From positions 1,488,001 through 1,552,000 of the forward strand of contig JAINUG010000168.1 of the NCBI GenBank assembly GCA_029706075.1: 64,000 bases of DNA, written 5' to 3'. Below, in pieces: positions 3,786 through 56,739 of this stretch. This stretch comes from Aldrovandia affinis (taxonomy: Eukaryota; Chordata; Actinopteri; Notacanthiformes; Halosauridae). The position numbers and the translations under genes are program-made. Every line of letters starts with the position of its first letter. Within the stretch, counting starts at the first letter, position 1. Below the pieces are notes generated by a model. That model did not search any database, was not told where the DNA came from, and saw nothing but the letters and a program-made list of their open reading frames with translations.

Positions 3786-3900
3786 GTTAACAGATTCAGG
3801 CAATCTCAAGAGAAGACTGTATTTATCAACTGTTCATAAGGAGTTTTCAGCGACCCCTTTACATGCCAAAATACCTCTTTCAAGTCTCAGACTTAACATT
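3786..3900 (+). CDS. cfap20dc: CFAP20DC exon a (CFAP20 domain, middle)
   Basis: CFAP20DC (C3orf67) carries a domain related to the ciliary inner-junction protein CFAP20. The exon lies between a strong acceptor (atttatttccag|G) and a canonical donor (ATT|gtgagt). Only one frame is open: G + 38 codons, reading [20 protein letters not shown] and then [18 protein letters not shown]. This matches the core beta-sandwich of the CFAP20 domain as I recall it from vertebrate CFAP20DC. The exon begins with the third base of a codon and ends at a codon boundary, which matches exon b (starts with TGG). The domain's start must lie in exons upstream of this window. Confidence 0.85.
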
Positions 3901-4005
3901 GTGAGTATACATGCATGAATTTTATGAGGATAAATTTATTTAAATGTATTTTATGAGTAGCCTTTTGTTACGACTGATACACAGGTTGGACCCAAACACA
4001 GACAT

Positions 4006-4156
4006 TAGCATTTTGGGAGTCAGCTTTGGTCTGGAGGGAGGGAAATAAAGTTTGGGAAACCCTGAGATAATATCGTATTTGCACATTTATTTTTAAAGTT
4101 GTTCATTAAGTACGCCATACTTAGTAGAAGCCTATCCATGTTTAATCAAAACTGCT
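4006..4156 (+). repeat. 151-bp direct repeat, copy 2
   Basis: Same-length partner of 2511-2661. It is preceded by tgttacgactgatacacagg, a tgtnacg...-type sequence resembling an LTR end, so the pair may be remnants of one retroelement family. That link is inference. Confidence 0.75.
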
Positions 4157-4271
4157 AAACTATGTGTAGCTTACATAGTTTGTGAGCACACTTCTCATAT
4201 ACTTTGTAGTATAACATACTAAATGACATAAAATAGGCCTACCAAATGACAAATTACCAGGTTTTACACAC

Positions 4272-4300
4272 TCACACCCACACACACACACACACACACT
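4272..4300. repeat. Short (CA)n microsatellite
   Basis: About 29 bases of mostly (ca)n in the intron between exons a and b. Confidence 0.85.
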
Positions 4301-5094
4301 TGTATATGTGTAATATAACATTGAAAATAGTTTTGAAGTTTCATACTCCTTCACACATCTATATCATATAACACACAAGTGATGCTGTGATCCATGTCTG
4401 TATGTGACATTTTAATATTAGCTGGATTAGTTATTTCCTTAGCATGCATGCTTAAGTAAGCATCGTTTACATTTTAAACAAGAACCATCTTCAGAGCTGG
4501 TTATATGGCAAAGTAATAAGAGACTCATCATGCATAGTACATGTTGAGGTCAGAGATCAAGAGATGTAACAGCTGAAAATAGATTTTATCATTTCAAAAC
4601 CCACAGAGCTCAGAGGAATTGGATTTTACATTGATAGCAAAATAAATGTCTTTTTTAAAAAATCAGCACATTGTGAATATTATTTAGTGAATTAAACCAG
4701 TGACAAAAAGGATGGCTATGGCAGAATAAAACCATTTTATTTAGAATCATAGCTTCCTTTGGTATGGGAGAGTTAACTGGTTCAGATTCTGAAATTCAGA
4801 AATACAATTGAAATTATGATTGGTGCAATGTAGCTAGCTTGGTAGCTAGTTAGCGTCATTACTTGGTAGCTAGCTAGCTAGCTAACCAGCTACCTGTCTT
4901 ACACCAGGGCTGGATTGCACCAGGTATGTGTAAATTCATTATTGTGTGTGAAGTCTGCACTCAACCCTAAAGGGGGTATTCTGACTCTAAGGAGCCAAGC
5001 GCAAGATAAACACATTTCACTGCACAGGATTTAAACACATTTGAGATGCAAGTATTGATTATTATTATTATTTATTTTTTCATGCATTTCCCCT
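4301..5094. other. Intronic sequence with TAGC runs
   Basis: No gene or recognised transposon. It holds clustered tagc/ctag tetramers around 4830-4890 and a (tta)n run near 5058-5075. Confidence 0.4.
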
Positions 5095-5480
5095 TTATCT
5101 CCCCAGTGTTGGAATGCCCAATCATATTCCTGAATCACATTCTCTGCAACCTCCATTGTCAATTCGGGAGAGTGTAGACAAGTAAACGCTCTCCTCCGAA
5201 ACACGTGATGTCAGTCGATGCCTCTTTGAACACCACAATTCACAAGCTAAGCTTGCACAGACATGAGTCAGAGGAAGACTCATCATGTGCAGCTTTATAC
5301 CGGCAGTTTGTGGGCACCCAATTGACTTGTGGGCGATGAGATGCGGATAACCAAGTCCACTAAATCTCTCCCTCCCTGGGTGACCATACCAATCATGTGG
5401 CTGCTGGTCACAGTCAGCACTGGCATGGTCTCGGCACGGTCTGGCACGGTCTCGCTTTGATACCAGACCATGGGTGCACA
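5095..5480 (-). repeat. Dispersed repeat, possibly a SINE
   Basis: This segment has the composition of a teleost dispersed repeat (gggagagtgtagacaag, acgctctcctccgaaacacg, gggcgatgagatgcggat). Read on the - strand it opens with a tRNA-like head near the right end. Boundaries and family are uncertain because I identify it by recall only. Confidence 0.4.
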
Positions 5481-5813
5481 CATTCAATTTAATTTACAGT
5501 TCATACAGAGTTCTAGCTTTATAACACAGCTGAAGAAGAGTGAGAGGCTGTGAAATAGGGGAGGAGAACCTAGTTAGCTTGAAGAGGCTAACCTGAAGGA
5601 AGACGGAGACAGAAATTCTCACAGACATGTACGAGTTATGATTTCGCTATGCTGGAAAACTGTACAATAGATATGCAGTGGCAAGATCTTGGTCGCATAA
5701 ACAACTAGCCGGAAATAGCCACGATATGACAAGCCCTTGTAGCCTATGGCTGCAGGCAACTCTTAACGTCTCACATCTGATTTATGAATACATAGCTGAA
5801 TGTTACACTAGGC

Positions 5814-6137
5814 CAGGGGTCGGCAACCTTTAACACTCAAAGAGCCGTTTGGACCCGGTTTCCACGGAAAAGAAAACACTGGGAGCCGCCAGTGGCGTAG
5901 CGTGGGTTGCCAGCACCCGGTGCAAGCCATGTAAACGGCGCCCCATTTTCTGTCGACGGGGGCAACGCGAAAAAATTATTGCGCCCCTCGGATTTTCGTG
6001 CGCGAGGAAATTTAGAACTACAAATAAAATACACTTCAATTGGATACTTATAATTTATTTTCCCAAGCCACGCGGAGCCGCAGCATAAGGATGAAAGAGC
6101 CGCATGCGGCTCCGGAGCCGCGGGTTGCCGACCCCTG
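5814..6137. mobile_element. Non-autonomous hAT element (MITE)
   Basis: Perfect 15-bp terminal inverted repeats CAGGGGTCGGCAACC (5814-5828) and its complement (6123-6137) are flanked on both sides by the 8-bp sequence CACTAGGC (5806-5813 and 6138-6145). An 8-bp duplication and CAGGGG ends define the hAT superfamily. At 324 bp there is no room for a transposase. An internal segment starting agtggcgtagcgtgggttgc looks like part of a second hAT-type repeat nested inside. Confidence 0.93.
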
Positions 6138-6299
6138 CACTAGGCTATCAAATGTCAGTTTGTTTACAATGCATATGAAATGATAATGCCATTCCAAGCA
6201 AAAACCTGAACGAAGTCAAATAGAAAGAAAGTTAAATTTTGCTGAAAGATGACTTTAGCACACAGGAATGTAGATTTCCATCAAAATCCTGATGGGTCG

Positions 6300-6547
6300 G
6301 GCCTCCAAGTGGTTAAGGCAATTGTTCTAGTGCAGATTGCCCACTGCAGCCTGGTTTCGAGCCCACTTCGGGCAGCGATTAGCTGTCTGCCCACTCAGTC
6401 TCAGAGGAGGCAGTTTAGTTAGCCCTTGCCAGTCACTGCCGGTCCCATAGTTGCAGCGGCAGATTCGCAGTACAAGGGGAATTGAACTAGAAGGGTACAA
6501 TTGGTCACCAAACTGTGAGAAAAAAATCTGAAATATAAAGAAAAAAC
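6300..6547 (+). mobile_element. tRNA-derived SINE
   Basis: The head ggcctccaagtggttaaggc resembles a pol III A box and ctggtttcgagccc a B box. The body ends with the typical gggtacaattggtcacc...gagaaaaaaatctg tail. A 12-bp flank, cctgatgggtcg (6288-6299) and cctggtgggtcg (6548-6559), differs by one base and looks like the target-site duplication. Confidence 0.8.
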
Positions 6548-6559
6548 CCTGGTGGGTCG

Positions 6560-7356
6560 TCAAGCAGACCACAATTTTCGGCATTGCCAGATCCCACTTG
6601 CTCCACATTTCCATTTTGGGGTGCAATCCGTTAGGTGCAGAGTCAGAATATGCTTAACTAAACCCCTTCCATATCTCTCCGATCAGCCTCCTCTGGCCAG
6701 CTGGCTATCCCGTCTTTCCAAACACCCGGTAGCCACTCCTCATGGCCCCACCTCTTCTCTGCCCTTGTCCCTAGATGATAGAATGACCTTCCCCACTTGG
6801 TCAGGATGGTAGTATTACTAGCCATCTTCCGCAAAAGAATGAAAACACCTTTTGCGACTTGACCTCAATTAATAAAAAAACCTACAAATGTTCATTTTAA
6901 CTTTCTCTCCCCTTCGTATTACAGGTTTTGTGGCAAGGACAAATTTGTAAATTGTAATTGTAAATTTTATGCGCACGTAACTCAAGTTAGAATACCCCAT
7001 TAGTCATTACTAGTTAGTTTATAACTCATGTTGAGTTAAATTACCTTGCATTGTTCAAATTTACGGTATAATTTAACTTGCAATGTGTTAGTTTATTACT
7101 AATAAGTAAATATTAGGGCACAAGCACACTGGGAATTGTAGTTTAATGTTTTAAAAAGAATGAGGAGGGCAAAATCCAATTTTTTGATCTTTTGACAGAG
7201 ATGGACAAAAATAGCATGTATCCTTGATTTTTTACATCTCCTGACCTTTACTCTTCAAATGAGCCTCCTAACTCTAATTCATTCTGTATCATTAACTTAC
7301 ACTTTGTTTGTATATGTGATCGACTTTATTAATGGTTAAATATTCCACACTAATTT
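6560..7356. other. Intronic sequence, no gene seen
   Basis: A GC-richer part (6640-6810) contains no frame I recognise. The remainder is AT-rich intron. Confidence 0.35.
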
Positions 7357-9262
7357 ACATTCAACTCCAAAATTATTCACAAAATTATTTTATAAAATAA
7401 AATAAAAAATGCAGGCAACTTAAATTATTTTTGATTAATACAGATTAGTAAAAAAAAATTCTCCAAAAAAGATGTAGCAATAATTTACACCCGTAATTGA
7501 CCTTAACAAGAGCACCAGGACCAGTAGATGCAAAAAAAAAACATAGCATCAAAGATTCACCACCATAATTTACTGTAGGTATAGGTTCTTTTCATAAAAC
7601 ACTATTGAAGACTATTGTGGGCCCTATTTAGGACGGTGTCGGTAACGCAGACGCAAAGCGAAGACGGTGGCGCTTTAGGGCGTGTCTAACGCAATTTCGG
7701 TAATTTTAGGACGATAGCACACCTCCGGCGCAGATGTAAAAGAGGTTGGATTAACTTAAAAAAATACATGTGGGTGTGGTGGGGTTTGGTTTCATAATGG
7801 CCAATCAGAACACCTATTTTCTATCCCTTTAAATACCAGTGCGTTAACGCTATAGCAAATGAGCAATATCCTGACATGACAGTTTTGCACGGCTGCGCCA
7901 GGAGCGCTTCTCAGAAATCATGTTATTTTCATGATTTCAGTTAATATTTTGAGACCTACATTGTGAAAAGAAAGTGTTTTATCTCTTTTTTTCCTTATTT
8001 GTAGGCTTTCCTACTTTAAAAAAACAATGTTTCTTTTCTTCTAACTTAATGTAATTGTTAAATGGAAAGCAATAAATAACAAACTCACAACTGCAACTAG
8101 GCCTGTTTCATTTATGTTCGACATGCAGTAGGCCTACATGTGTCACCCTGGAGTGTGCATCACAAACCACTTTAATGGAGTTAATTCTGTTTCACATAAA
8201 TGATACCGTGATCAGATGGTGCACACAACTGAACATGTGTGCAGACCCCAGGGAATCTACATTGCATATAATAATCCTGTTTAGTTCTCTGCTGGCTGTT
8301 GGGTGTAGGAAAAGTAATAAACGAATTTGCATGTTGGACAAGACTGGAAGAAACTGCATGTATAGCCAAATTGATAGCCGTCCGGCAAACACCGGCTACC
8401 AAACCCAGGGTATCGCTCATGGTATTGCCTTCGCATATTGCTTATCGCATTTTCTGTAGTGCAAATGGAAAGAATAAAACCCTTTCACATAAGAAAAACA
8501 ATGTGCATACAAACATATATTTATTTAACAGGTGTATCTTACTGAACGGTAGCGATGGATGGCCTGCTGGGTTCAGTCTTTCATGTCCGTGCATTGAATA
8601 ACCACAAGCTGTGGTGAAATATGTTTTAGCCTAATTGATTACACTTGCAGGTTACCCATAGATTGGACGATTTGCCTCAACATGGGGGGAAATTCACAAT
8701 ATTCACAAAACATTCTCATGTGATTTCAGATAACCTTATGTTCATAAACATCAATAAAGCGCATCAATAAAGTCACCAAATTGCACAGAGCGCCAGCGTT
8801 TGCGCTAAGAGGTGGTGTAGTTGGACGTTAACACAAACGCATTATTTGACACCAAACTTGCATAGCGCTGACTGTTTTCATAGTCACACCCCCTATTGCG
8901 CTGCCCAGCCCATAGTCGCGCAAACGCCTTCATTGCGCACCACGAAATTGCCAAACTTGGCGGAGACGGGAAATATTCCGTTTGCGACAGACAGAACTGG
9001 CAATTCGCCTGCGCTAGGGCATAACGCCCCTTAGCACCGGCACGAAAATAGGGCCCTGTGTGTTAATGCAGATTCATTTTTATTGGATTTTATTTAAAAT
9101 TAGGGGAAAAAATCTCTGAGCAATTGTATTATTATAAAATAACAATTTTGTATTTATTTATTTGAGAATACAATATAGCACATTACCTGTATGGTTTATT
9201 TTATACAGCCTTTTTTGCTCATCTTTATCAAGGGTGTGAATAATTTGGGAGTTGACTGTATA
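7357..9262 (-). mobile_element. Decayed Tc1-like transposon, split
   Basis: Inverted ends are visible: tcaactccaaaattattcac at 7361-7380, and gtgaataatttgggagttga near 9236-9255 ending at TA. Inside the left half, 7520-7600 resembles the - strand of a Tc1 transposase around the conserved VKYGGG segment (accaccataatttactgta). The element is interrupted by the insertion at 7619-9056 and has no open transposase frame left. Confidence 0.6.
7619..9056. mobile_element. Non-autonomous DNA element with GGGCCCTATTT ends
   Basis: The block starts GGGCCCTATTTAGGACGG and ends in the inverted form ...CCGGCACGAAAATAGGGCCC, about 1.44 kb apart. The inner flanks carry GC-rich motifs (ggcgctttagggcgtgtc, cgcagacgcaaagcg) known from an abundant teleost repeat. 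TGT occurs on both sides, consistent with a 3-bp duplication as in PIF/Harbinger, but the superfamily is not certain. No transposase frame is visible. Confidence 0.65.
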
Positions 9263-9384
9263 GTGTGTATACAGTATTGCAATCATTTCTCAGGTGATGA
9301 ATATCTCCATAGTAACACAATAATTTCTATGTTCAACACTCAAATAATGTTGTTTAACTGTTCCTTTTACATTCTGATTTTCAG

Positions 9385-9541
9385 TGGTGTAACATGTGCA
9401 TCGACCTTGTGTCATTCACTGGTGAGATATTCAAAGGAGCTGTATTCTTATCCTTGGATAGAATCATAGTTTGTGCCAGCTGCAGGCTCAGAAGAATTTT
9501 CACTATGAAGCTCCAGCCTGCAGATGCTTACAGTGAGAGTG
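9385..9541 (+). CDS. cfap20dc: CFAP20DC exon b (CFAP20 domain)
   Basis: Acceptor tctgattttcag|TGG and donor AGTG|gtatgt bound this 157-nt exon. In the phase left by exon a it reads [20 protein letters not shown], followed by [20 protein letters not shown] and ending ADAYSES plus one base. The [18 protein letters not shown] signature is what I recall for CFAP20DC proteins directly after the SLR-NI segment of exon a. It ends in phase 1, which exon c completes as a GAT codon. The intron upstream is 5,484 nt and holds the DNA elements listed between 4 and 9.3 kb. Confidence 0.88.
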
Positions 9542-10015
9542 GTATGTTTTTGACTCAATCAATATTTGGCTTACCTACCCAACCTTTTTGATTGAAAAAA
9601 CTAAGTTTATAGTATGTTATATAGTATGTTCAGGTTTTTTCATCTTCTGGTTAATTACTGATAATTCATATCAGGAGCATGTAGTAAACTGGTATTTTGT
9701 AACATTTAGAGAATTGCAATCATTGTATATTCATTTTTCAACAACATTCTTTTTCATTCTCAGATTTAGAATGCCAAATTGTAATTACGTACCTGTCCAT
9801 ATCCCCTCGCTGTAATATCCTCCTTAAATTTGGGAGGGTGCTCATTAGCATCCGCATCATTAGCATAGCAGCCAGCTGCTTCTTGTCACTTTACAGTCCA
9901 CTGGCAACACTTGTTAATAGATGATAATATTCAAGATACAATTTCAAACGTACCTCAGAACTGGTACAGGATTAAAATACATTGAATAACCAATGTCTAA
10001 CCAAACCTTATATTT
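9542..10015. other. Intron between exons b and c, left part
   Basis: AT-rich sequence without recognised repeats, between the exon b donor and the inverted-repeat element at 10016. Confidence 0.4.
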
Positions 10016-10329
10016 CATTAAAAAAATAAAGATTCAAAGGCACTCACAAGGATTAAAAAGCCTTTATTCTTTTGGCATTTCATATTTCCCTTAAAGCGTC
10101 CCCTTAAATTCATCCCCAATTCAATTCAAGGAGGCAATAGATTGAAACTCCTATTACAGAGAGAGACATACTGGATAAATACACTCTGAGCAACTGTTTT
10201 TCCTGGCATTAATGAGGAGATAGATTTTTAGTTTCTGTAATTTAATGTAAATTTAAGTCTCAAAGGAATACAAAACAAAGTATTGGTGTTATGCCCTTTA
10301 TTGTTCTCTAGGACTTAGCATCTCGTATT

Positions 10330-11330: not shown

Positions 11331-11480
11331 ATCTTTATATTTGCGGAAATGGTCCCAGGGAAATCATTCCAAGGATTTGCCAGTTTCCAGCAGATGTACA
11401 ACACATCACACAGGTGTTGAACATGAATAAGCTGCGACTGGCAGAAATGAAGCTCAGTGGCTCTTTATCTTCAGAATTGG
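11331..11480 (+). CDS. cfap20dc: CFAP20DC exon c (end of CFAP20 domain)
   Basis: The acceptor is ttttcacccatag|AT and the donor TTGG|gtgggt. With the single G carried over from exon b the first codon is GAT, and the 150-nt exon reads DLYICGNGPREIIPRICQF, then PADVQHITQVLNMNKLRLAE. The IIPR-CQ and QVLNM-KLR-AE segments are those I recall from vertebrate CFAP20DC just beyond the folded domain. It ends in phase 1, which exon d completes (G+AA = GAA). The intron upstream is 1,789 nt and the one downstream 32,844 nt. Confidence 0.88.
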
Positions 11481-17140: not shown

Positions 17141-17395
17141 AATGGTGGCAGCCATACCACCCTGTGATTTCCTCCTGCCTGGCTGAAGCTAAGCAGGGCT
17201 GGGCCGGGTGAGTACTGAGATGGGACACCTGGGAAAATGAAGTCGCTGCTGGAAATAGTGTTGGTGGGCCAGTACTAGGACTTCCCTGTGGACCAAGCAT
17301 AAAATCAGTGCCTTTGTGCAGTGATGGGATGGGGACACTGTATTGCAGGATATTCCCTCTTTCATATGACATGGTTAAATCAAGGTCCTGACTCA
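17141..17395 (+). mobile_element. 5S rRNA-derived SINE
   Basis: The head tggcagccataccaccctg, then gaagctaagcagggctgggc, gggtgagtactgagatggga matches the 5S rRNA consensus including its internal promoter. The body continues with aatagtgttggtgggccagt and a tail containing caaggtcctgactcac, as in fish SINE3-type elements. Substitutions and a lost internal segment show it is a SINE copy rather than a functional 5S gene. Confidence 0.85.
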
Positions 17396-18004: not shown

Positions 18005-18478
<474 letters not shown>

Positions 18479-22219: not shown

Positions 22220-22990
22220 TTAGTTGTTAAGAGGGTTAGAATATGGGAGAGTGCTACTATGTCCACACACCTGATTGACCTTTAGCCATGTTTTCAGAGT
22301 GTGTTTGAAAGATCTGTATGTATCAATCTTGCGAATGTGTGACAGTATGGAGTTCCAGAACAGAGCAGCTCTCACTGAGAAGGCTAACTGACTAAGGGAG
22401 CTTTTCCTCAGCGGCACGATACAGCCACCTACCGAGACAGTTTTATTATTTGAGTGACTTTCTTTACCTGCTTTTTGAATGTGAGATCCCTCCTCTCCAG
22501 AATGCCTCTCACCTGCAACATATACATCTGGGTCAGGGGTATCAGATGCTCTTTTTGTGAAAAACATAGATACAGTTTTTTTCACATTAAGGTGGAGACA
22601 GGCGTCATTGAGCCACCTGGATACCTGCACCATAATTGCAGAGAGTTTGCTTGCTGCCTCGTTTTTGTTTTTAGCATGTGCATATATTACTGTATCATCT
22701 GCATACATTTGAACTGCACACCCAGCACAGACAGAAGGCAGATCATTGATATATATACTGAACAGGAGGGGCCCCAGAATCGACCCCTGGGGCAGACCCA
22801 CATCATATTTGAGGAAGGGTGATGAGTCACCACTCACTCTGACGCACTGTGTTCTGCCTTCAAGGTAGGATCTCATCCATTTTAAGGCATCAGGGGAGAA
22901 GCTAAACATAGATAGCTTAGTGATGAGTACCTTGTGGTTAATGGCATCAAATGCCTTCCTCAGGTCTAGAAGCACAGCTCCAACAATGCC
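22220..22990 (-). pseudogene. LINE reverse transcriptase, catalytic part
   Basis: The frame starts LLDLRKAFDAINHKVL (RT motif with the first catalytic Asp), continues with GLPQGSILGPLLFSIYINDL and the YADD box (MYADDTVIYA). It ends with FSVRAALFWNSILSHIRKI, the usual C-terminal segment. Part of the region after the YADD domain is lost (jump after DPDVYVAGER). The N-terminal half of RT continues at 24020-24563 beyond the inserted LTR: across the insertion the frame resumes KGGIVGA-LLDL. Inactive through disruption. Confidence 0.85.
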
Positions 22991-22997
22991 CCCTTTG

Positions 22998-24014
22998 TGT
23001 CACAGTTCCATGTAATTCATGCCACGTTTTATGTGTTATTTATGTCATGTTTCATTTCATGTCATGTCTTGATTCGGTTTTCATGTTACGTTTCTGTTCA
23101 TGTTTAAAGCATACACTTTTTCATGTTCTTTCCGCAAATCTTGCGTTCATGTTTTCTCTCTCTCTCTCACTGTCACTCACGTTTCCTTATTGTTTCTAAC
23201 CCCTCCTTGTCTGATTACTAATTTACTAACGATTAGATAGGTTTATTGTTTCTGCTAGCACGATTGGCAATTTAGTAACTCTAATTGCCGACGTGCTGGA
23301 GATTTACTAATTACTAACTTGCTAATCATATGTATTCATGTTTCCTTTCATTTCTAGTTCATGTCTGATTTACTAATCTACTAACGCTAGGTCAGGATAG
23401 GATAATCACTAACAACGACTAATTATTGTTACCTTGTCACGCTCTCCTCAGCTGTTTTCTGTTTCGCTCTGTTCTCAAGCTAAGTGTCTGCACCTGTCTA
23501 CACCTCCATATAAGCTCAGTGTTTTTGTCACGTCCTTGCGAAATGGTTGCCTATATTTCTATAGCACTTTTGAGTGTTTTCCTTGGTTGAGTTCATTGTT
23601 ATGACCCAAGCCTGTTTACTGACCATTGTTACTGCCTGCCGTTTTTGTTACCACTGCCTGTTTTGTACCACGAGTTTTGCCTGCTGTCTTTTGTGCCTTT
23701 GCCCCGCGGAGCAGACTTCGGTCTTGACTCTTGCACCGTCCCTGACTACGAGCCTGCCTACCGTCCTCCTGTACGTCTGCCCCGCTGACAGCTACTCTGG
23801 TTTGTTTAGATTTTTTGCATGGTTTACCGAGTTCGAGACTGCCTTCTCCCTCGGTACTGTACTTTAGTTATTGGCTTGATTTTTTGGTTATCGGACTTTG
23901 CTTTTGTTTGACTACGTCTCCTGAACATTCCTCTAATAAAGCCCTTGCAGGTCTTTATTTTACGTCATTGTTTGAGTCGTGCATTTCGGGTCCAACATTC
24001 ACACACCCGTCTCA
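22998..24014 (+). mobile_element. Solo LTR (family D) inside LINE RT
   Basis: It starts TGTCACAGTTCCATGTAATT and ends ...ACACACCCGTCTCA, with CTTTG on both sides (22993-22997 and 24015-24019) as an exact 5-bp duplication. An AATAAAG signal lies at about 23935. At 1,017 bp it has no internal coding region. Removing it and one CTTTG restores the sense of the interrupted LINE frame, which confirms the boundaries. Confidence 0.93.
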
Positions 24015-29019: not shown

Positions 29020-29372
29020 TGGCTGAAACCCAAGAAATACAAAGTGTCCCTAACACATTTAAAGTAACAACGTGGAATGTGAATGTCCTCCGTGAGGGTA
29101 CAAAAAAAACATAAAGTTTTAAACCATTTGGAAAAGATATCCTCGGATATTGCATTTTTGCAAGAAACTCACTTTAAAATTAAATTCCTTAAAAGAAATT
29201 GGGTAGGAGAAGCTTTAGATGCCACATACAGCTCTAATAGTAGAGGTGTTGGGATACTGACAAATACAAATATACCATTTACTTTCAATTCTCAACATTC
29301 AGACCCAGAGGGGAGATATTTAGTTGTAAATTGTCTTATTTATGGTAATACATACAGCCTTATTAACATATA
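29020..29372 (+). pseudogene. L1 ORF2 endonuclease, N-terminal part
   Basis: It begins at ATG 29020 (MAETQEIQSVPN...FKVTTWNVN), the TWNVNG start of L1 AP-endonucleases. It shifts frame near 29080 and continues SSVRVQKKHKVLNHLEKISS, IAFLQETHF (the QETH catalytic Glu), RGVGILTN and GRYLVVN. It is cut at the TA target of the Tc1 insertion after INIYI. Confidence 0.85.
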
Positions 29373-30977
29373 CATTGGGGAGAACAAGTATTTGATACAC
29401 TGCCGATTTTGCAGGTTTTCCCACTTACAAAGAATGTAGAGGTCTGTAATTTTTATCATAGGTACACTTCAACTGTGAGAGACAGAATCTAAAACAAAAA
29501 TCCAGAAAATCACATTGTATGATTTTTAAGTAATTAATTTGCATTTTATTGCATGAAATAAGTATTTGATACATCAGAAAAACAGAACTTAATATTTGGT
29601 ACAGAAACCTTTGTTTGCAATTACAGAGATCAGACGTTTCCTGTAGTTCTTGACCAGGTTTGCACACACTGCAGCAGGGATTTTGGCCCACTCCTCCATA
29701 CAGATCTTCTCCAGATCCTTCTGGTTTCGGGGCTGTCGCTGGGCAACACGGACTTTCAGCTCCCTCCAAAGATTTTCTATTGGGTTCAGGTCTGGAGACT
29801 GGCTAGGCCACTCCAGGACCTTGAGATGCTTCTTACGGAGCCACTCCTTAGTTGCCCTGGCTGTGTGTTCCGGGTCGTTGTCATGCTGGAAGACCCAGCC
29901 ACGACCCATCTTCAATGCTCTTATTGAGGGAAGGAGGTTGTTGGCCAAGATCTCGCGATACATGGCCCCATCCATCCTCCCCTCAATACGGTGCATTCGT
30001 CCTGTCCCCTTTGCAGAAAAGCATCCCCAAAGAATGATGTTTCCACCTCCATGCTTCACGGTTGGGATGGTGTTCTTGGGGTTGTACTCATCCTTCTTCT
30101 TCCTCCAAACACGGCGAGTGGAGTTTATACCAAAAAGCTCTATTTTGGTCTCATCAGACCACATGACCTTCTCCCATTCCTCCTCTGGATCATCCAGATG
30201 GTCATTGGCAAACCTCAGACGGGCCTGGACATGCGCTGGCTTGAGCAGGGGGACCTTGCGTGCGCTGCAGGATTTTAATCCATGACGGCGTAGTGTGTTA
30301 CTAATGGTTTTCTTTGAGACTGTGGTCCCAGCTCTCTTCAGGTCATTGACCAGGTCCTGCCGTGTAGTTCTGGGCTGATCCCTCACCTTTCTCATGATCA
30401 TTGATGCCCCACGAGGTGAGATCTTGCATGGAGCCCCAGACCGAGAGAGATTGACCGTCATCTTAAACTTCTTCCATTTTCTAATAATTGCGCCAACAGT
30501 GGTGCCTTCTCACCAAGCTGCTTGCCTATTGTCCTGTAGCCCATCCCAGCCTTGTGCAGGTCTACAATTTTGTCCCTGATGTCCTTAGACAGCTCTTTGG
30601 TCTTGCCCATTGTGGAGAGGTTGGAGTCTGATTGATTGAGTGTGTGGAGAGGTGTCTTTTATACAGGTAACGAGTTCAAACAGGTGCAGTTAATACAGGT
30701 AATGAGTGGAGAATAGGAGGGCTTCTTAAAGAAAAACTAACAGGTCTGTGAGAGCCGGAATTCTTACTGGTTGGTAGGTGATCAAATACTTATTTCATGC
30801 AATAAAATGCAAATTAATTATTTAAAATCATACAATGTGATTTTCTGGATTTTTGTTTTAGATTCCGTCTCTCACAGTTGAAGTGTACCTATGATACAAA
30901 TTACAGACCTCTACATGCTTTGTAAGTGGGAAAACCTGCAAAATCGGCAGTGTATCAAATACTTGTTCTCCCCACTG
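29373..30977 (-). mobile_element. Tc1-like transposon, almost intact
   Basis: The element is 1,605 bp with TA on both sides (29371-29372, 30978-30979). Its terminal inverted repeats run about 200 bp and differ at only a few sites. They open with ggggagaacaagtatttgat and contain a second internal aagtatttgat copy (IR/DR type). The transposase on the - strand covers nearly the whole interior. Insertion occurred in the L1 endonuclease frame: excision of the element with one TA restores INIYIPPG. Confidence 0.97.
29589..30610 (-). pseudogene. Tc1 transposase (DD34E), one frameshift
   Basis: Tc1 transposases cut and rejoin the element at TA sites. The frame from ATG at 30610 reads [19 protein letters not shown] (first helix-turn-helix). 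The main frame from 30461 carries the second HTH, the linker, and the catalytic triad: MWSDETKIE (D), [11 protein letters not shown] (D) and DLNPIENLW (E), with the last two spaced as in DD34E. The region [14 protein letters not shown] is also intact. One base appears missing near 30503 (in gagaaggcaccactg on the - strand). With 1,022 nt present, a single extra base would give exactly 340 residues, the standard family length. Confidence 0.95.
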
Positions 30978-30979
30978 TA

Positions 30980-31538
30980 TATTCCCCCAGGATTAAACCC
31001 AACATTTCTTTAAAAAATACAATCTATAATAGACACCTTGGAAATAGGCACGATAATATTGGCTGGAGATCTTAATAATACCTTCAATAAATTAGATAGG
31101 GCTTTTTAACTTGGTAGTCCTTCTATCTCACCAAAGACCTTAAACTTCTTAAGTAATAATAACTTGCAAGATATTTGGCACACCCTCAACCCAAAAACTA
31201 TGGACTACACCTTTTACTCACATCCTCAAAATAGCTACAGCAGATTATATTACATATTTATTTCTAAATCTGGAATCGATAATATTATATCAACAACAAT
31301 TTATGATATAGTAATCTCCGATCACGCAGTAGTAACGGCTATGATTTTACCCGTTGGAAATAAGCAATCCAATACAATGTGGCGCTTAAATAGGAAATAC
31401 CTTTTGGACACAGAATTGATTAAATATACAAATGAACATATAAGTATTTTTAAACCAACTAATGTAGAAATGTATGACATAGACAAGCTAAATCCTCAAA
31501 TAATATGGGACTCTTTAAAAGCTTACATGTGGGGCATG
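30980..31538 (+). pseudogene. L1 ORF2 endonuclease, C-terminal part
   Basis: It resumes after the Tc1 insertion with PPGLNP and includes ILAGDLNNTFNK (GDFN-type motif, across a frame change near 31060), YTFYSHPQNSYSRLYYIFIS and the terminal SDHA motif (YDIVISDHAVV). It then runs into the linker NPQIIWDSLKAYMWGM and is interrupted at 31539 by a hAT element. Stops near 31110 show decay. Confidence 0.85.
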
Positions 31539-32811: not shown

Positions 32812-35150
32812 ATTATTTCATACTCTGCAAGAAAAAGATCAAGTCTACAGAATGAATTGAAATCTGTTGAAAAAGGTATTACAGCTAGAGAAAAGGCATA
32901 AGAGGTGTGTGAATGAAAATGTTAGGAAGGAACTTCAAGTGATGAAATGTAAATATGATAATGTATTATTAATGAGAGCCAATGACTACATTTAATTTAA
33001 TTTAAATTATATTATATATCTGCAAACAGGACAGGGAAACAACTATGTGCACTAACAAATGAATATTAACTAAGTCCACAGTAGTTCTTAAAGACCCACA
33101 AAGTAAAGTAAAGAACCAATATATAACAATCGAATGATTAATGTTTAAATTGTATTATGAACAGTAATATCAATCGGAGATAAAACAGCAGGAGTATGAT
33201 CCCCAACTATTCTTCAACTCAATAGATTTAAAACAAATCAATACTGAACAGAAAGAGAACCTGACAAATGACATAACTCCAGAAGAAGTACTGGAAGCAA
33301 TCCAGAGATAATTCGCCCAGACCAAACTGGATTAATTCAAAATAGAAACCTGCGTACCAATACAAGAACATGTTTAGCGGCCATCCAATATGCAAAGAAA
33401 TATGGTATCGATCTAGCACTCATGTCGGTAGATGCCGAAAAGGCATTCGACCGGGTCGAGTGGCCATATTTATTAAAAAGTTTACAAGCATTTAATTTCC
33501 CCCCGGAATTTATTAACGTTATAAAAATACTTTATAAAAGCCCAACTGCTCAAATTCTCTCAAATGGTGTGCTATCTAAACCATTGTACCTAACAAGAGG
33601 AACTAGACAAGGTTGCCCACTATCACCTTCTTTGTTTGCAGTTACAATTGAACCACTGGCTCAAAAAATAAGGCAAAATAAATAAATATCAGGCATGATG
33701 ATTGGAAATTACCATCATAAACTAAGCCTATTTGCAGACGATCTCATTAAAACATCAATTCCGCAACTATACAACAGTATTCCGAAATATCGGGGTATAA
33801 AATAAATATTGGAAAAACAGAAATTTTAACAACTACTAGAATGCAAAACATACCAGTCCAGTTAGAAAAATTTAAGTGGATAACTAAAGGCATTAAATAT
33901 TTAGGATGCTTTATTCGCCCAGAAAAATCACAACTGTATAAAGACAATTATTTACCTCTAATTAAACATTTTAAAAAGAGTCTAAATAAATGGACAGATT
34001 TAACCAATAAATATAATAGGGAGAATTAACTTATTCCAAATGATATGGTTGCCTAAGTTCCTATATATATTTTCAACAATCGTGGATTCACTGTGAAAAG
34101 TGGATTCACATAGAAAATCAGATGACCCAACCGCAAAACTTATTTAATTGCTTATTTTCAAAACATAAATTAAAGAACAATAAATAACAATTCCCCAAAT
34201 TATTGAATAATCATTGGTTAACTATTGAACATAAACCAATAGCATGGGAAAAATGGAGGACGAATAAAATAAACTACATAGCAGATATATTAAAAGAAAA
34301 TAAATTAATGACCTTCCCCGAAATCAAAGAGGCTTACTATTTAACTGACGCTGAAACATGGAAATATCTACAACTTAAAAGTTGGATACTTAAAGATTAT
34401 GATTTGGAATATCCAAGCAGCAGCAGTGAAATATAAGTGGTTTTTGACTCTGATGGAAGAAAACTCATAGGGAAAATGTATAAAATATTGGTCAAATCAA
34501 AATCCAGCGACATTACTGACTAAAATATACAGTAAATGGAATCAAGACTTAAAAGTTAAGGATACGGATGAAAAATTTAAAAACTGTTTAAATATCACTA
34601 ATGACATTACAATAAATGAAAATTAAAGATTAATCCAATATAAATGAATGATGAGAATGTATTACACACGAGATCGTATAAATTGTTTTGATTCAAAGGT
34701 ATCATATCTGTGTGAAGTGTAATAAAAAGAGCGATTCACTTATACACTCCTTTTGGGAATGCAAAGTAGTCCAACAACTTTGGAGGCAGGTTGAGAAATG
34801 GCTATCTGAAACACTTAACGTTAACGTTTCCATTACTTTTACGCCTAACATATGTACAGTATATTCCAAAATACAGGGAACTTAAGATATCCAAATGGCT
34901 GGGTCATACTACTGTCATCACTGATTATAAAAAAACTAATCTTAAAGAAATGGAAAGACCCAACATCGCCAACGATGGAACAGTGGAGGATCCCAATGGC
35001 ATTTTACTTAAATATGGAAAACCATGATATAACATGGGTTTGAGTTCCATATCACTTTTTGAAAATGGATGCATCCAGAGATATCTGTATATACCTCGGA
35101 AAAGTAAGACCATTTTAACTTCTGAACTTAACTAGGATTGACGCATAATG
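32812..35150 (+). pseudogene. L1 ORF2 reverse transcriptase, decayed
   Basis: The piece at 33422-33685 reads MSVDAEKAFDRVEWPYLLKS (catalytic Asp motif) and LTRGTRQGCPLSPSLFA. A frameshifted LFADDLI box follows near 33729. 33841-34029 has GIKYLGCFIRPEKSQLYKDN, and 34688-34780 has a CVKCNKKSDSLIHSFWECK motif, the Cys-His region near the L1 C-terminus. At least six frame changes or stops separate these. The 3' limit is set near 35150 because no L1 motif is seen beyond it. Confidence 0.85.
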
Positions 35151-36889: not shown

Positions 36890-37843
36890 TGTGACGTACG
36901 TGATAAGGACCCAGACGCAGATCAGGATAAGGCAAAATAATCGTTTAATGGGAAGCAGGGGTCAAAACCAGGAATCAGGGTAGCGAAGGTACAAAATCAC
37001 AAGGCAGAGTGTAGTCACAAAAACAATCCAAAAAGTCTAAACCGGGAAGCAGAAAGGCAAACAAACAGAATCGACAGGCAGGCTCGGAGTGGTAACAGAA
37101 GGGGTGTCTCAGGAAATACTATAAACTCTGGCTTACGAAGAATTGGCTCAGGGAATAAAGATCAACGTTCTGACGGGGAAGGAACATAAACACGGAACTG
37201 ATATACAAACAGGAAAGGGCAACACAATAGGAATCAGGTGTGACTGGGAGGAGAGAGAGGTAGGAACACAGGTGTAAACATTGGCAATCGTTAATCCAGT
37301 AACGAGGGGAAACGCAAGACACGGACTGGGAATAATACAAACACATAGACAATAAACGACCTGGGAGATCAGGCAGACACGTGCATAGTTAGAAGGGGAG
37401 GAACGCAAAGAGAGAAACTGCGTGCGAATGAAAAAGAAAAGTGAAAAGCTAACAGGGATAGGATAATGAGAGGGAATGACAGCGATAGTCAGAAGCATGA
37501 GATAATTAGTGATTAGTAGTGTTAGTAACTTAATCTAAATCCCTAATGTTAGTAGATTAGTTGGTTAGTACTATATACATCTAACTAATATATACAAAGT
37601 GAAATATAGAAAGTAAGAAGGAAGAAAACGAGATAATAAGCTAAGACGGAAAAAACCCGAAATGTAGAACTTCCCGAAGTGCATGACAAGACAAGGAGTG
37701 GATCTCGAAATAACAGGAATGATGACAGACGGGGACCAGAATGTGACAGAACGATGAAAATTAAATACTGAATAAAGAATAATGAATAATGAATAATAAA
37801 CAAAGTACAAAAAACAACAGAACAGACACTCAGAAACATAACA
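36890..37843 (-). mobile_element. Solo LTR, Gypsy family A
   Basis: It starts tgtgacgtacgtgataagga and ends ...cagaaacataaca, with TTGTG on both sides (36885-36889 and 37844-37848). It matches the LTRs at 44576-45462 and 49966-50850 in the same orientation, and the LTR at 42079-43023 inverted. At 954 bp it is somewhat longer than the LTRs of the full element, so it is a related subfamily. It interrupts the linker of the L2 LINE (frame resumes SGDLVAMRNI). Confidence 0.95.
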
Positions 37844-38390
37844 TTGTGGCTATGAGGAATATTCAGAAATAACTCAACCACAAATTAAGGAAGGCTAGGA
37901 GGAAGGAGAAGGAGAAATTTGAAACCCACTGCTCTTCTATGAACACCAAAAACCAAACATGGCTCCAGCTAAAAAGTGTCTTAGTGTTTTAAATGAGGGT
38001 GAGAAGGCCAATGAATTAAACAACTTTTATGTGAGGTTTGAAATAGCTGACTTCCTGCGTCGACTTAGAGTTCACGGTGTTGATAAAAAATGTATGTTAG
38101 TCTTTTATCAGGCAGTTTTAGAGAGCCTTAGATACGGCATCACAGCTTGGTTTGGTAACCTCTCCGTGCAACTAAAGTCCAAACTGGTCCGATTGATGCA
38201 GACTGCATGGAAGATTATAGGGGTAAGACGGCATCCATCCTTGCAATCTACTTATGAACAGGCTACCCTAAGGCAAGCCAATAGGATAGTTACGGACCCA
38301 TCCCATGTTCTACACGCTGAGTATCAGCTACTGCCCTCTGGGAGGAGGTTCAGAGTCCCTTGTTGCAGATTAAATAGATTTAAAAATTAA
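37844..38390 (+). pseudogene. L2 linker joined to C-terminal tail
   Basis: After the LTR the linker reads LNHKLRKARRKEKEKFETHC and LNEGEKANELNNFYVRFE. Without any RT motif it passes to FLRRLRVHGVDKKCMLVFYQ, then WKIIGVRRHPSLQSTYEQAT and VLHAEYQLLPSGRRFRVPCC, the normal C-terminus. The junction near 38045 therefore marks an internal deletion of roughly the whole RT domain that kept the frame open. Confidence 0.85.
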
Positions 38391-38618
38391 TTTATCCCTG
38401 TGTCAATAAAACTTTTAAATAGCGGCAGATAAGAAAGGGATGAGGCCAGGATGGACACTGGAGGATCTTTGTGTTGTTTTATTAAAGGGATTTGTGCAGA
38501 TCTTTGTATGTTTTTTGTATGTGGAATGTCTGTCTGCAGCATGGGTGAAAGCCCAAGCCAAATTTTCCACTCTGGGACAATAAAGGTAATCTTGAATCTT
38601 GAATCTTGAAGATGCTAT

Positions 38619-38680
38619 TATGACATCTAAGGTGCTATTAGGACATTAGGATGCTATTAGGACATCTAATGCTAAGGTAC
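38619..38680 (+). repeat. Short imperfect tandem repeat
   Basis: Units of gatgctattaggacatcta recur about three times directly after the L2 3' end. Confidence 0.7.
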
Positions 38681-39150
38681 GCTTTGAATCAAATATAGAT
38701 TACATGACATTTGATGTCTGTGGCATTTGTTGATAAAAAATTATGTTTTGAAAATATGGGTGCAATAATATTGTTTAGTTCACTAAAACATGCACTAGTT
38801 GAATATAGAATATGAATGTAGAATATGAACCCTGGATTCCATGTGCCATGTGCCATGCTTCAAACCATATATTTGTATTATTTTACGCAGGTAAAAACCA
38901 TAGCTTATTAGCACATAAAACACCTCTTAGTTCATAAATTAGATCAGGAAGTCCTGCTTGCTCCCTGTGAATGTATAGGCTATTCTCACTTCTCAGAAAA
39001 TTGTTGTAATACTATACTAAACAAAATTGACACCTTGATGACTGATATTTTCTGACGCTTATCAGTTTTGACTTGAAATGTGCACATTTACCATGAAAGT
39101 ACTATAGATATTTCCGAAACGATTTTAACAGTTTTTGGGTAAAATTCTCA
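38681..39150. other. Intronic sequence, no gene seen
   Basis: AT-rich. A small atgtgccatgtgccatg repeat lies near 38840. Nothing else recognised. Confidence 0.35.
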
Positions 39151-39168
39151 ACAGCATGCATACGCATA

Positions 39169-39368
39169 CTCTCGCAGGGAATCCCAGAAGCACAGGGCTC
39201 ATATTTCACTCATCACATTTTTTTAATTAAGGGGTGGGAGATATCTCCCTGGCTTCAGTGACAGTATAAATGGAGTAATACAATCATTACACACAATTTT
39301 CTTAGTCACAACAAACTTTTGTGATGTGTGAAATATGAGCCCTGCACTTCTGGGATTCCAGGTGTGAG
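39169..39368. mobile_element. Foldback MITE with 49-bp inverted arms
   Basis: The left arm 39169-39217 (gaatcccagaagcacagggc, tcatatttcactcatcaca) is the inverse of 39320-39368 with few mismatches, around a ~100-bp loop. Weaker similarity extends the arms outward to about 39155 and 39383. No target duplication was identified with confidence. Confidence 0.75.
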
Positions 39369-39404
39369 TATGTGTGGTGTGCATGGCCAAGAAGCTAAAT
39401 ATTG

Positions 39405-39590
39405 GTCTCATCTGATTATAACACCTGGTTTAAATTGGAGTTACAAACTCTAGATGCTTATTTATTCCCATTTTTTTCTGGCAACTCTTCCATAAAGCCT
39501 ATTGGTGTCTGATGGTACATTTGGAGACTGTGTGCCTCCAAGATGCAACCAAGTTTTGTGAATAATTTTGGAGGGTACTGAATGTTATTA
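39405..39590 (-). mobile_element. Tc1-like end fragment
   Basis: The sequence tggtctcatctgattataac corresponds to the - strand of a Tc1 transposase around its catalytic Asp region, and gtgaataattttggagggta resembles a Tc1 terminal repeat like that of the element at 7357-9262. The other end is not seen. Confidence 0.5.
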
Positions 39591-40029
39591 ACCTTCAATA
39601 GATAACTGAAAGATCTGTCCATTAGAATTTTCATTGTCCCTTGTCATATAGTTAGATAATTCGAGTTATTGTACAATAATACGTCAAATATGTGTTATTT
39701 ATTATTGCACCATAACGTGTCATGACAAAAATAACAGGATAGGCTGTGTCACATGGTAGCATATTACGTCTCTCAGCTCAACCAACATCTTTGTTCAAAC
39801 CAAGCTGTCTTCCCCAGCTAGAACTAATTAGTTCATTATTTTTATATATTTAAAATTTTAGTGTATAAGAAATGCTGCTAGGAGCACCATGCACTTTATT
39901 TTTCAAAAAGTAATGTTGATATGTTCTGTTTTGCAGTATTTTTAAAAAGATAATGTTGAAATGTTCTGTTTTGCAGTATTTCATTAAACAATGTTTAAAG
40001 GCATTTTAAGGGTGTTTTGTGTTGGAGTT

Positions 40030-40172
40030 TGTGTTACTGCAAATTTTGACACTAAAATTGTCATTTTTACTGCAAATTTATATCGGCCCCAAATATCGGT
40101 TATCGGTCTCCTCGATTACTAATAATCGTTTTCAGTATCGGCCCTGAAAAAACCATATCGGTCGACCCCTAC
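40030..40172. mobile_element. hAT-like arm with TATCGG repeats (left)
   Basis: The sequence atatcggccccaaatatcgg, ttatcggtctcctcgattac, accatatcggtcgaccccta has the TATCGG repetition and terminal GGGGTCGACC complement of a common teleost hAT family. The inverted partner may be at 40588-40660. Confidence 0.55.
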
Positions 40173-40587
40173 TGTGAACCATATCTCCAAATGACCCCAT
40201 GTCTAACAATGCATAGGCGTATCTTTGAGAACAGAAAGTATTGTACGGTCTGAAGCATAAACAATGTGATGCATGGTACATTTACAGAAGCTTTATACAT
40301 TGCACTGGAAGCTTTTCAATATCTGTATGTGAGGTTTGAGGCATTGTACTTGTGAAACTTTGCATAATAAATGTGACTGGAGGGTTCTTCTGTATGTGGA
40401 CCAGTTTAGAATGCTTATTATTGATGACACATAATGGTTTTCAAGAGCATTGCCAGTAGTAAATGGGTAAAAATAAAATAGGAGTAAAATTTCTCCCCTA
40501 GTGAAGCTAATGTAAAAGATATGCTCAGTAGATTCCTCAGGGAGGAATGGCCCCTTAATGTTAGCATTAGTGGCAGCTGCCTAATGA

Positions 40588-40690
40588 CTAGAGGTGAGAC
40601 TGATCGATTGGCCCCGCCGATAGATAGGGCCGATATTAGCATTTTCAAAAATATCTGCATAGGCAGGTGAGGACATTGATATGGCCCATC
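40588..40690. mobile_element. hAT-like arm (right), degraded
   Basis: tagaggtgagactgatcgat, gggccgatattagcattttc, aaaatatctgcat resemble the opposite terminal arm of the TATCGG-type element. The direction suggests a second or rearranged copy rather than the simple partner of 40030-40172. Confidence 0.45.
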
Positions 40691-42005
40691 TTTATTCTTA
40701 TTTTGAAAGCCTCTCCATACACTCCCTCCAGTGTCGGTATCAGTATCTCAATATTTCCTTTAATTTCTTCTATTAGCTAGATAGCTACCAAATGTTCATT
40801 TATCCATACCATGTTCAGTTAGATAGTTTGCTAGATAGCTATATCAGAATTTTTTTTTTAAAAGCCCTAAAATACTGAGGTAAATGTGGAAAAATACTTC
40901 CCTCCCTGTATCTGATTAAAGTAACATTTTCTGATTTGGAGCATCATTTATTTTACGCAGAATGAGCTAATTGTTATAGCTACTCAGATGGTTGATGGCA
41001 TCATTGTCTGTAGGAGTGTAAGTAGACTGCTAGCTAGCTGTTGCTAGCTAATGTTGAACATGACTGAAACATTGTCACATTATCAATTTTAATAGCAATG
41101 GGAATTTCAGTTCCCAACCACTGTCATCTTATGTCTGAAAACCTAAACATAGAGCAACATTAAACTGATAATGTTTCATTTATTACAAATAGCTGAGAAA
41201 GGCAAAGTGTGAGCACTGCATGCAAAAAACATAATAAAAAATTGGCAGGCATTGGTCTTTCTGCTCTCTAAAGTATTTGTATCAGCCAACTCTCTACTCT
41301 ACATCTGGCTGGGGAAGTAAGCTTCGTGACTAGGGCCACATTAACTGCAGAAGCTTGCTTGCGGTTAAAACAACACACTCAATCTGTAGCAGAAGACAGA
41401 TGGCTCTGCTGCTGCTTCTGATTTTGTGAATGTGGAGAAATATTAAGAGTTATGGCTGTGGACAGGGCATGCGGGGGTGAGCATGTATGAGTAGCTTTAT
41501 GGTCATCAAGCTCCCTGTTGGGCCTTCAGGGGGGCTAATGGTGGCTCTAGTTGAGTTTGAGGGCTGTTGAGAATGAGCAGAGCAGAACTACAGGGGGTTG
41601 GGGGAACCCAACCTGTGTGGGTGAAAGGAGGAGTCAGGGATATAGAGAACTCCATGTTGGCAGTGCTGTACATGTGGGCAGGAGGAACATTTGTTCTCAA
41701 TTTTCCAAATTGCACTTCAATTTATTTGCTTTTTGTTAACACCAATAAAATAACATATTCAAAGTATGGTGCCTGCAATCCCCAATATCACCTCTTACAG
41801 TTGGAGGCTAAATTGTTGATTTGTAAATTGTGGGCACAGAAATGGATAATATGTCACTATTTGCATACATTTTCTCTTAATAGTTTTTTTAGCACAAATT
41901 AATTTGTTAAATTGTCAGAGGGAGGTAATTAGCAATGTAATAAAATCATGCTCTTTGAAACATGCTGCATCAGTCTTGCTCTGTTATTTGCATTAACTAG
42001 TTAAA
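40691..42005. other. Intronic sequence, no gene seen
   Basis: It may include internal hAT sequence (ctacatctggctggggaagt near 41297). tagc-rich patches lie at 40785-40850 and 41020-41050. An open frame at 41551-41739 has no recognisable motif and no splice context. Confidence 0.35.
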
Positions 42006-42078
42006 ATATACTCTCAGTGGCCACTTTATTAGGTACACCTTTCTAGTACTGGGTAGGACCCCCCTTTGCTCCCAGAAC

Positions 42079-43023
42079 TGTTACGTTCTGAGTGTCTGTT
42101 CGGTTTGTTTTTGTACTTTGTTTATTTATCATTCTTCGAGTCTTGTTCTGTCACGTTCTGCTCCCTGTCTGTCCTTGTTCCGTTTATTTCGAGATCCACT
42201 CCTTGTCTTGTCATGCACTTCGGGAGTTTATACATTTCGGGTTTTTTCTGTCTTCGCTTATTATCTCGTTTTCTTCCTTCTTACTTTCTAGATTGCACTT
42301 TGTATATATTAGTTAGATGTATATATTACTAACCAACTAATCTACTAACGTTAGGGATTTAGATTAAGTTACTAACACTACTAATCACTAATTATCTCAC
42401 GCTTCTAACTTTCGCTCATTCTCTCTCATTATCCTATCCCTGATTAGCTTTTCACTTTCCCTTTCATTCGCATGCAGCTTCTCTCTTTGCGCTCCTTCCC
42501 TTTAACTATGCACGTGTCTGCCTGATCTCCCAGGTCGTTTATTGTATATATGTTTGTATGTTTCCCAGTCTGTGTATTGCGTTTCCCCTCTTTATTCTAT
42601 TAGCGAATCCCCTCGTTATTAGATTAACGATTCCCATTGTTTACACCTGTGTTCCTCCCCTTTCTCCTCCCAGTCACACCTGAGTCCTATTGTGTTCCCT
42701 TCCCTGCTTGTATATAAGTCTATGTTCTTTCCTGTTCTGTACTTGATCCTTATTCCCTGTGCCTACTCTTATTCAGCCAGTGTTTATTGATTTTTCCGAG
42801 ACATCCCTTCTGTTTACGACTCCGAGCCTGCCTAGCGATTCTGTCTGTTTGCCTTTCTGCCTACCTGTTTTTACTTTTTGGACTGCCTTTTTGTGACTAC
42901 TCTCTGCATTGTGATTCTGTACCTTCGCTATATCTGACTCCTGGTTTTGACCCCTGCTTCCCAATAAACAACTCTTTTGCCTAAGTCCTGATCTGCGTCT
43001 GGGTCCTTATCACGATCGTCACA
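42079..43023 (+). mobile_element. Solo LTR, Gypsy family A
   Basis: It starts TGTTACGTTCTGAGTGTCTG and ends ...TTATCACGATCGTCACA, flanked by AGAAC on both sides (42074-42078 and 43024-43028). It is homologous along its length to the LTRs of the full Gypsy element but in the opposite orientation. It contains a TATA-like tgtatataagtc (about 42708-42720) and AATAAA at 42963. Confidence 0.95.
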
Positions 43024-43319
43024 AGAACAGCCTGAATTATTCATGGCATGGATTCAACAAGGTGCTGGATTGGTGCTGAACCAGTTGACAGAAGGCAGGA
43101 TGGATGCATGGATTCATGTTGTTTACGCCAAATTCTGACCCTACCATCTGCATGTCGGAGCAGAAATCGAGATTCGTCAGAGCAGGCAACGTTTTTCCAA
43201 TCTTAAACTGTCCAGTTTTGATGAACTAGTGCCCACTGTAGCCTCACTTTCCTGTTCTTAGCTGATAGGAGTGGAACCTGGTGTGGTCTTCTGCTGCTGT
43301 AGCCCATCCACTTCAAGGT

Positions 43320-43574
43320 TCAATGTTTTGTGCATTCATAGATGCTCTTCTGCATACCACTGTTGTAACGCGTAGTTATTTGAGTTACTGTCGCCTTCCT
43401 GACAGCTTTAATCAGTCTGGCCATTCTCCTCTGACCTCTCTCATTAACAAGGCGTTTTCGCCCACAGAACTGCCGCTCACTGGATGTTTTTAGTTTTTTG
43501 CACCATTCTCTGTAAACTCTAGAGACTGTTGTACAGGAAAATCCCATGAGATCAGCAGTTTCTGAGATACTCAC
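43320..43574 (-). pseudogene. Transposase DNA-binding region, remnant
   Basis: The 84-residue - strand frame starts MSISETADLMGFSCTTVSRV and continues FCGRKRLVNERGQRRMARLI, KAVRKATVTQITTRYN. This is the paired helix-turn-helix layout (two HTH joined by a GRKR-type hinge) of Tc1-family transposases. The catalytic domain does not follow in an open frame. Confidence 0.8.
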
Positions 43575-44044
43575 ACCACCCGGCTGGCACCAACAATCAT
43601 TCCACGGTCAAAGTCACTTAGATCACATTTCTTCCCCATTCTGATTTTTGGTCTGAACAACAACTGAACCTCTTGACCATGTCTGCATACTTTTATGCAT
43701 TGAGTTGCTGCCACATGATTGGCTGATTAGATCATTGCATTAACGAGCAGGTGTACAGGTGTACCTAATAAAGTGGTCATGACTGTATATACATAGATTT
43801 TAACAGCAGAAGTGGTTATTGTATTGATTAAATTAAGCTTTTAATTAGAACCTTTACTAGGTTAGACAATTGTCACAAAGATATTCAAACACACACATAT
43901 AAGCATCCATCTCCCTATGATCAGCGATTAATTACTTCATTATATGTTGACAATTGAAGACAAATATTGTGGGATGTTATTTCCACTTCAATCATACAGT
44001 TTAAGAATTGTGATGATTCTCACAATTAATTTTTTAATGTTTCA

Positions 44045-44145
44045 TTTTGAAGTGCTATTATTTATTTTTTATTTATTTAACCTTTATTTAACCAGGCAAG
44101 CCATTAAGAACAAGTTCTTATTTACAATGGCGGCCTGGGTACATA
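44045..44145 (-). mobile_element. LINE 3'-tail repeat
   Basis: tttatttatttaacctttat, ttaaccaggcaagccattaa, gaacaagttcttatttacaa, tggcggcct is a ubiquitous fish retroelement 3' motif. Only about 100 bp are present. Confidence 0.6.
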
Positions 44146-44324
44146 CCTGGGTACATACACCATTCACTCACACATTAAAAGGACACTAATGTGTATTCAC
44201 CCCATCTCAGATAGTGGATTTGGATATTAACAATAAAGTTGGTCTTATGTCCATTATGATGTGTGGTTAATAGTTCCCTCTTTATTTTAAATGTCCAACT
44301 GTCAGCTGTCTCTATCTCCAACAG

Positions 44325-44461
44325 AACAGACAAATGGTGGTAGTTCAATTGCTGCACGGGTGTTCAAGAACCAGGATGTGTGCCACATTGCTTTCGGATC
44401 AAAAGTCCCAGGACCCCCTCCAGCAACAGGGAGGAAGACCAGCGCAACTGGCAGCCGGGAG
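44325..44461 (+). CDS. cfap20dc: CFAP20DC exon d (KNQDVCHIAFGSK)
   Basis: The acceptor is ctctatctccaacag|AA and the donor GGGAG|gtaagt. With the G from exon c the exon opens with GAA and reads EQTNGGSSIAARVFKNQDVC, then HIAFGSKVPGPPPATGRKTS and ends at a codon boundary. The KNQDVCHIAFGSKV-GPPP-GR signature is, from memory, nearly invariant in vertebrate CFAP20DC just beyond the CFAP20 domain, and was the clearest identifier of the gene. Downstream the protein becomes low-complexity and I cannot place its next exon with certainty. A complete Gypsy element begins 114 nt after this exon. Confidence 0.9.
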
Positions 44462-56736: not shown

Positions 56737-56739
56737 TTG

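Follow-up and report, generated by a model that had tools for sequence, protein, structure and literature searches.

Introduction

CFAP20, also known as FAP20, is an inner-junction protein of the doublet microtubule, where its fold seats it between the A and B tubules. The product of the locus described here shares the CFA20 domain and the fold of CFAP20, but CFAP20 chains are mostly about 190 residues in length and lack a long tail, whereas this product continues through exons 8-12. Similarly, WDR90/POC16 carries the domain at its N-terminus (DUF667), but in that protein WD40 repeats then follow. CFAP20DC (C3orf67 in human, zgc:162324 in some fish models) agrees with our product in the domain, in sequence (64-68% identity to the trout protein) and in the tail stretches encoded by exons 8-12. 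In the literature searched we found no functional study of CFAP20DC; of the 18 papers that mention this name, none has it in the title or abstract, while C3orf67 occurs in 46 papers (in the abstract of at least one) and together with cilia in two.

We analysed a 64,000-nt stretch of the genome of Aldrovandia affinis (hereafter the window; C757:1488001-1552000 of a 1.22-Gb assembly), along with the adjoining parts of the same contig, 40 kb on the upstream side and 60 kb on the downstream side. Coordinates are those of the window, and the contig position is 1488000 plus the window coordinate. The gene found here is CFAP20DC, an identification we consider practically certain. It adds a vertebrate ortholog to a gene already known, ordinary rather than new, and has little importance in itself. 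Its value is as a gene model that spans at least 126.8 kb and has a start codon and twelve recognised coding exons, two of them provisional.

Results and Discussion

The exon chain in the window

An earlier note on this DNA had called four exons whose phases chain as 0, 1, 1 and 0. A check of splice sites and frame against the window sequence reproduced the borders of all four (exons 5-8; Table 1) and the intron phases behind them to the base. Joined, these exons give 186 stop-free codons, and stops occur in seven of the eight other forward frames. The first base of exon 5 fills the codon left open by upstream exon 4, and exon 8 carries the KNQDVCHIAFGSK stretch. The four calls thus stand, but the set was not complete, as a fifth exon at the far end of the window (exon 9) had been missed. 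No exon was recognised upstream of exon 5 within the window (positions 1-3785) by tblastn of relatives. We infer that the chain is expressed and spliced in this fish.

Short open frames between AG and GT are common, and the 18.5-kb intron behind exon 8 holds 63 phase-compatible candidates (one with a good donor), so phase-matched exons could in principle be lookalikes that arose by chance. Against this, each exon has its own homology, in order. With relatives searched against the window, the best tblastn E-values were 1e-15, 3e-20, 1e-10 and 8e-13 for exons 5 to 8, respectively, among the 14 of 36 proteins listed. A search with 239 proteins gave a best value of 2.2e-20 in the real window, far beyond the best values in the reversed window (0.002) and in three block-shuffled windows (0.003, 0.009 and 0.002). 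In these controls up to 184 of the 239 proteins stacked at one chance site at E <= 20; the number of proteins matching a site is therefore uninformative, and it is the E-value that counts. The control searches and the further exons on both sides of the four refute a chance origin, which we consider vanishingly improbable.

Table 1. Features of the CFAP20DC locus in window coordinates; negative positions lie before the window and positions above 64,000 lie after it
Feature	Coordinates	Length	Strand	Phase in/out	Acceptor/donor	Evidence and remarks
Coding exon 1	from -15726		+			Pattern match; start codon, MFKNEYQ
Coding exon 2	-15414..-15325		+		AG/GT	tblastn
Coding exon 3	-12120..-12027		+		AG/GT	tblastn
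Coding exon 4	-11009..-10937		+		AG/GT	tblastn
Coding exon 5	3786..3900	115 nt	+	2/0	ttccag/gtgagt	tblastn, 4.9e-12 vs O. mykiss P0001
Coding exon 6	9385..9541	157 nt	+	0/1	tttcag/gtatgt	tblastn, 1.1e-19 vs P0001
Coding exon 7	11331..11480	150 nt	+	1/1	catag/gtgggt	tblastn, 2.1e-10 vs P0001
Coding exon 8	44325..44461	137 nt	+	1/0	caacag/gtaagt	tblastn, 8.0e-13 vs Leucoraja P0003
Coding exon 9 (provisional borders)	62930..63069	140 nt	+	2/1	tctaagttttag/gtgagg	tblastn
Coding exon 10 (provisional borders)	68099-68453		+	2/	AG/GT	
Coding exon 11	89065-89466		+		AG/GT	
Coding exon 12	110799-111056		+		AG/GT	
Ty3-type LTR retrotransposon	44576-50850		-			Pfam and LTR comparison; both ends present; 114 bases after exon 8
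Tc1-like transposon	29368-30982		- (transposase frame)			Frame of 306 residues; 203-base inverted repeats 97% alike
Reverse-transcriptase fragment	22220-22999					Pfam
Reverse-transcriptase fragment	33272-33685					Pfam
Reverse-transcriptase fragment	52603-53079					Pfam

The gene beyond the window

Exons 1-4 were located upstream of the window, at a distance of 10.9 to 15.7 kb, and the coding region extends at least 47 kb past the window's end. The start was located by the pattern MFKNEYQ, which had only one match in the 24.6 kb scanned. In total, twelve coding exons were recognised in order on the plus strand. Both borders were placed for all of them but the start exon, and the distance from the start codon to the end of exon 12 is 126,783 bases. 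The end of exon 1 and the start of exon 2 are both in phase 0, and exons 2-8 are in frame when joined by script; together, exons 1-8 encode 279 residues. Past exon 12, neither a stop codon nor a further exon was recognised in the fetched downstream DNA.

Long, transposon-rich introns (32.8 kb and 18.5 kb), together with the two phase mismatches midway along the chain, might be expected of a decaying or partial copy, such as a pseudogene or a duplication fragment. A retrocopy is ruled out because introns are present. As for the remaining forms of decay, the start exon and exons 2-12 are in order, free of stops and frameshifts, and bounded by AG and GT (exons 2-12), with exons 1-8 in exact phase, while the pieces not found fall where the orthologs themselves conserve poorly. 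This makes a decaying copy very improbable. Gene identity, exon chain, open frames and domain are directly supported, and the exons of the window are, with very little doubt, coding exons 5-8, plus 9, of an intact-looking CFAP20DC ortholog in a ray-finned fish.

Identity of the gene

The earlier note had also named the gene as CFAP20DC, and the domain, the named orthologs and the twelve ordered exons on one strand all agree with it. The four-exon peptide matched Pfam CFA20_dom (PF05018) at 1.9e-18, with the domain ending in exon 6, and the 279-residue product matched it at 3.1e-42 over positions 1-173 of the 185 in the profile. The protein search that had been suggested as a check, using the spliced 186-residue peptide, returned 36 of 124 candidates at E <= 0.001. 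The best was CFAP20DC of trout (O. mykiss; 1.5e-63, 64% identity over 97%). Named matches were mostly CFAP20DC, C3orf67 or CFAP20/CFA20-domain proteins, and some were called hypothetical, had a clone-type name or had no name. Over its residues 1-274, the 279-residue product shares 68% identity with the O. mykiss protein P0001 (369 bits). Past the domain, conserved tail stretches were recognised by eye from alignments in exons 8, 9, 10 and 12 (NQD..HIAFGS, PHPP...KLR, DDFIGSES and LSASQIH.CNVSI).

The CFA20 domain is common to several genes, and the sequence matches in the PDB are of the CFAP20 type (8 distinct sequences, best 6.8e-13), so the locus might instead be CFAP20 or WDR90/POC16. The match to CFAP20 is weak, in contrast to the 64-68% identity to CFAP20DC: the four-exon peptide gives an E of 0.15, and the whole domain gives 52 bits, against 369 bits for P0001 with another program, a gap that is indicative only. 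Exons 8-12 match CFAP20DC tails, which most CFAP20 chains lack. Stronger CFA20 matches lie elsewhere in this genome, on contigs C1358 and C2355. Another CFA20-domain gene is, in our judgement, extremely unlikely. Pfam recognised no WD40 repeat in the 279 residues encoded by exons 1-8.

The genome-wide search for the CFA20 family gave 15 matches on four contigs. When eight loci from the other contigs were compared with the 279-residue product, there was one weak match (L008, E of 0.004). Two clusters of CFA20 matches lie about 7 kb apart at C2355:3633537-3643443, with further matches on C1358 and C2356; the two clusters are possibly a tandem duplication of CFAP20.

It had been expected that automatic annotation could easily miss this gene. 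This was not supported by a search with the plaice model P0057: among the 120 best of 1013 proteins at E <= 0.001, very many were fish proteins to which annotation pipelines had given the name CFAP20DC or C3orf67 homolog. This search scored only the 7994 candidates sharing the most words, and the 1013 are not all necessarily CFAP20DC. The one annotation fault that we saw runs the other way, with reverse-transcriptase sequence apparently taken up into the Diretmus model P0230.

Exon 9 and the variable middle region

Among the exons, exon 9 has the weakest evidence. It was recognised by tblastn with longer-tailed orthologs, best with the protein P0183 (2.3e-5) over SLQPHPP...KLRVY(N/S)AERE, at 62967-63053 on the plus strand, and its position, after exon 8 and before exon 10, keeps the order of the chain. 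This site was matched by 103 of the 239 proteins at E <= 20, a count that by itself is uninformative in view of the controls. In the larger search its best E-value was 5.9e-5, compared with 6.5e-5 for the stray reverse-transcriptase match of P0230. The borders given in Table 1 are the likeliest ones for exon 9, and those of exons 9 and 10 are provisional.

Exon 8 ends in phase 0 and exon 9 begins in phase 2; likewise, exon 9 ends in phase 1 and exon 10 begins in phase 2. These mismatches indicate at least one small exon still to be found at each join, or other borders. An exon is expected between exons 8 and 9, since some tens of poorly conserved residues separate the two in orthologs. A profile of this segment from 72 of the 239 proteins, searched against 473 translated plus-strand fragments, recognised none in 44462-62929; the best match (E of 0.91) falls in a retrotransposon LTR. 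The stretch 63069-68099 was covered by tblastn of relatives alone. We also considered an acceptor at 62957 that would join exon 8 to exon 9 directly and in frame, and set it aside for its weak pyrimidine tract (judged by eye). Between exons 8 and 10 the protein has its variable middle, and the phases there call for exons that the ortholog profile did not recover. That this part is encoded by new, lineage-specific exons, possibly derived from the intron transposons, seems very unlikely.

Phylogenetic placement

A tree was built from 30 rows, the window peptide and 29 sequences chosen from the 239 proteins, using 185 of 186 columns. Three rows are partial: Pangasius and Cyprinus cover 49% of columns, and the sturgeon row is without exons 5 and 7. 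The window peptide is sister to 14 clupeocephalan rows (joint branch 95/91; the 14 rows together 99/98). Sturgeon falls outside, and the group of 16 is supported at 93/90. The CFAP20DC peptide of this fish therefore branches below the sampled Clupeocephala and above sturgeon. Such a position would suit an eel-like or bonytongue-like fish, or perhaps a gar-like one, on a tree whose rows were drawn from other groups.

Protein fold and proposed role

The fold was predicted for the trout ortholog from a 28-row alignment, with a mean pLDDT of 77. Blocks 11-180 and 191-220 of the model reach a pLDDT of at least 79, and elsewhere it is lower. When the model was compared with the PDB, the 19 best of 593 matches (among the 50 listed) were chains from ciliary microtubule structures. 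All 19 come from entries with CFAP20 chains, at an identity of 19-24%, and the fold class is directly supported.

The CFAP20DC product begins with one CFA20 domain, and the long tail behind it is poorly conserved. Its most likely role would be that of a microtubule-binding protein of the CFAP20 fold linked to the cilium or the sperm flagellum. We infer such binding and a ciliary role, and we would put a ciliary microtubule role for CFAP20DC at about even chances. For the related DUF667 domain of WDR90/POC16, binding to both microtubules and tubulin has been reported in vitro (PMC7500955). CFAP20DC itself appears in the gene lists of papers on ciliary-dyskinesia and male-infertility panels (PMC13410081, PMC7602585).

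Transposons and other intron sequence

The long introns of CFAP20DC in Aldrovandia affinis are filled with transposons, which we take to be passengers. The earlier note had held that none of them is part of the gene and, consistent with this, none of the elements listed here overlaps an exon. The window has 35 frames of at least 130 residues; 20 of these were searched with Pfam, and nine of the 20 matched models of reverse transcriptase, RNase H, transposase, integrase, gag, endonuclease or Tf2/chromo (E <= 0.001), with the endonuclease matches falling below Pfam's own cut-offs. The other 11 frames had no Pfam match, and any transposon label on them is by eye only.

The Ty3-type element inserted recently and is oriented antisense to the gene. 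Between its two LTRs, at 44576-45462 and 49966-50850, there are 8 differing sites and 6 gap columns in 889, and it has TG...CA ends and a 5-base target duplication, CACAT. Two stretches at 36890-37752 and 42079-43024, in opposite orientations, are about 76-83% identical to these LTRs and 86% identical to each other; they are probably older related copies. On the minus strand, 22658-22786 is matched by residues 717-759 of the Diretmus CFAP20DC model P0230, which has probably absorbed a transposon.

A match to 5S rRNA was found at 17144-17254 on the plus strand, with 44.5 bits against the Rfam gathering score of 38. It looks less like a 5S gene than like the head of a SINE derived from 5S; a literature search for 5S-derived SINEs in fish returned nothing of use. 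Finally, the introns hold two perfect dinucleotide arrays, (GA)74 at 18007-18154 and (GT)77.5 at 57669-57823.
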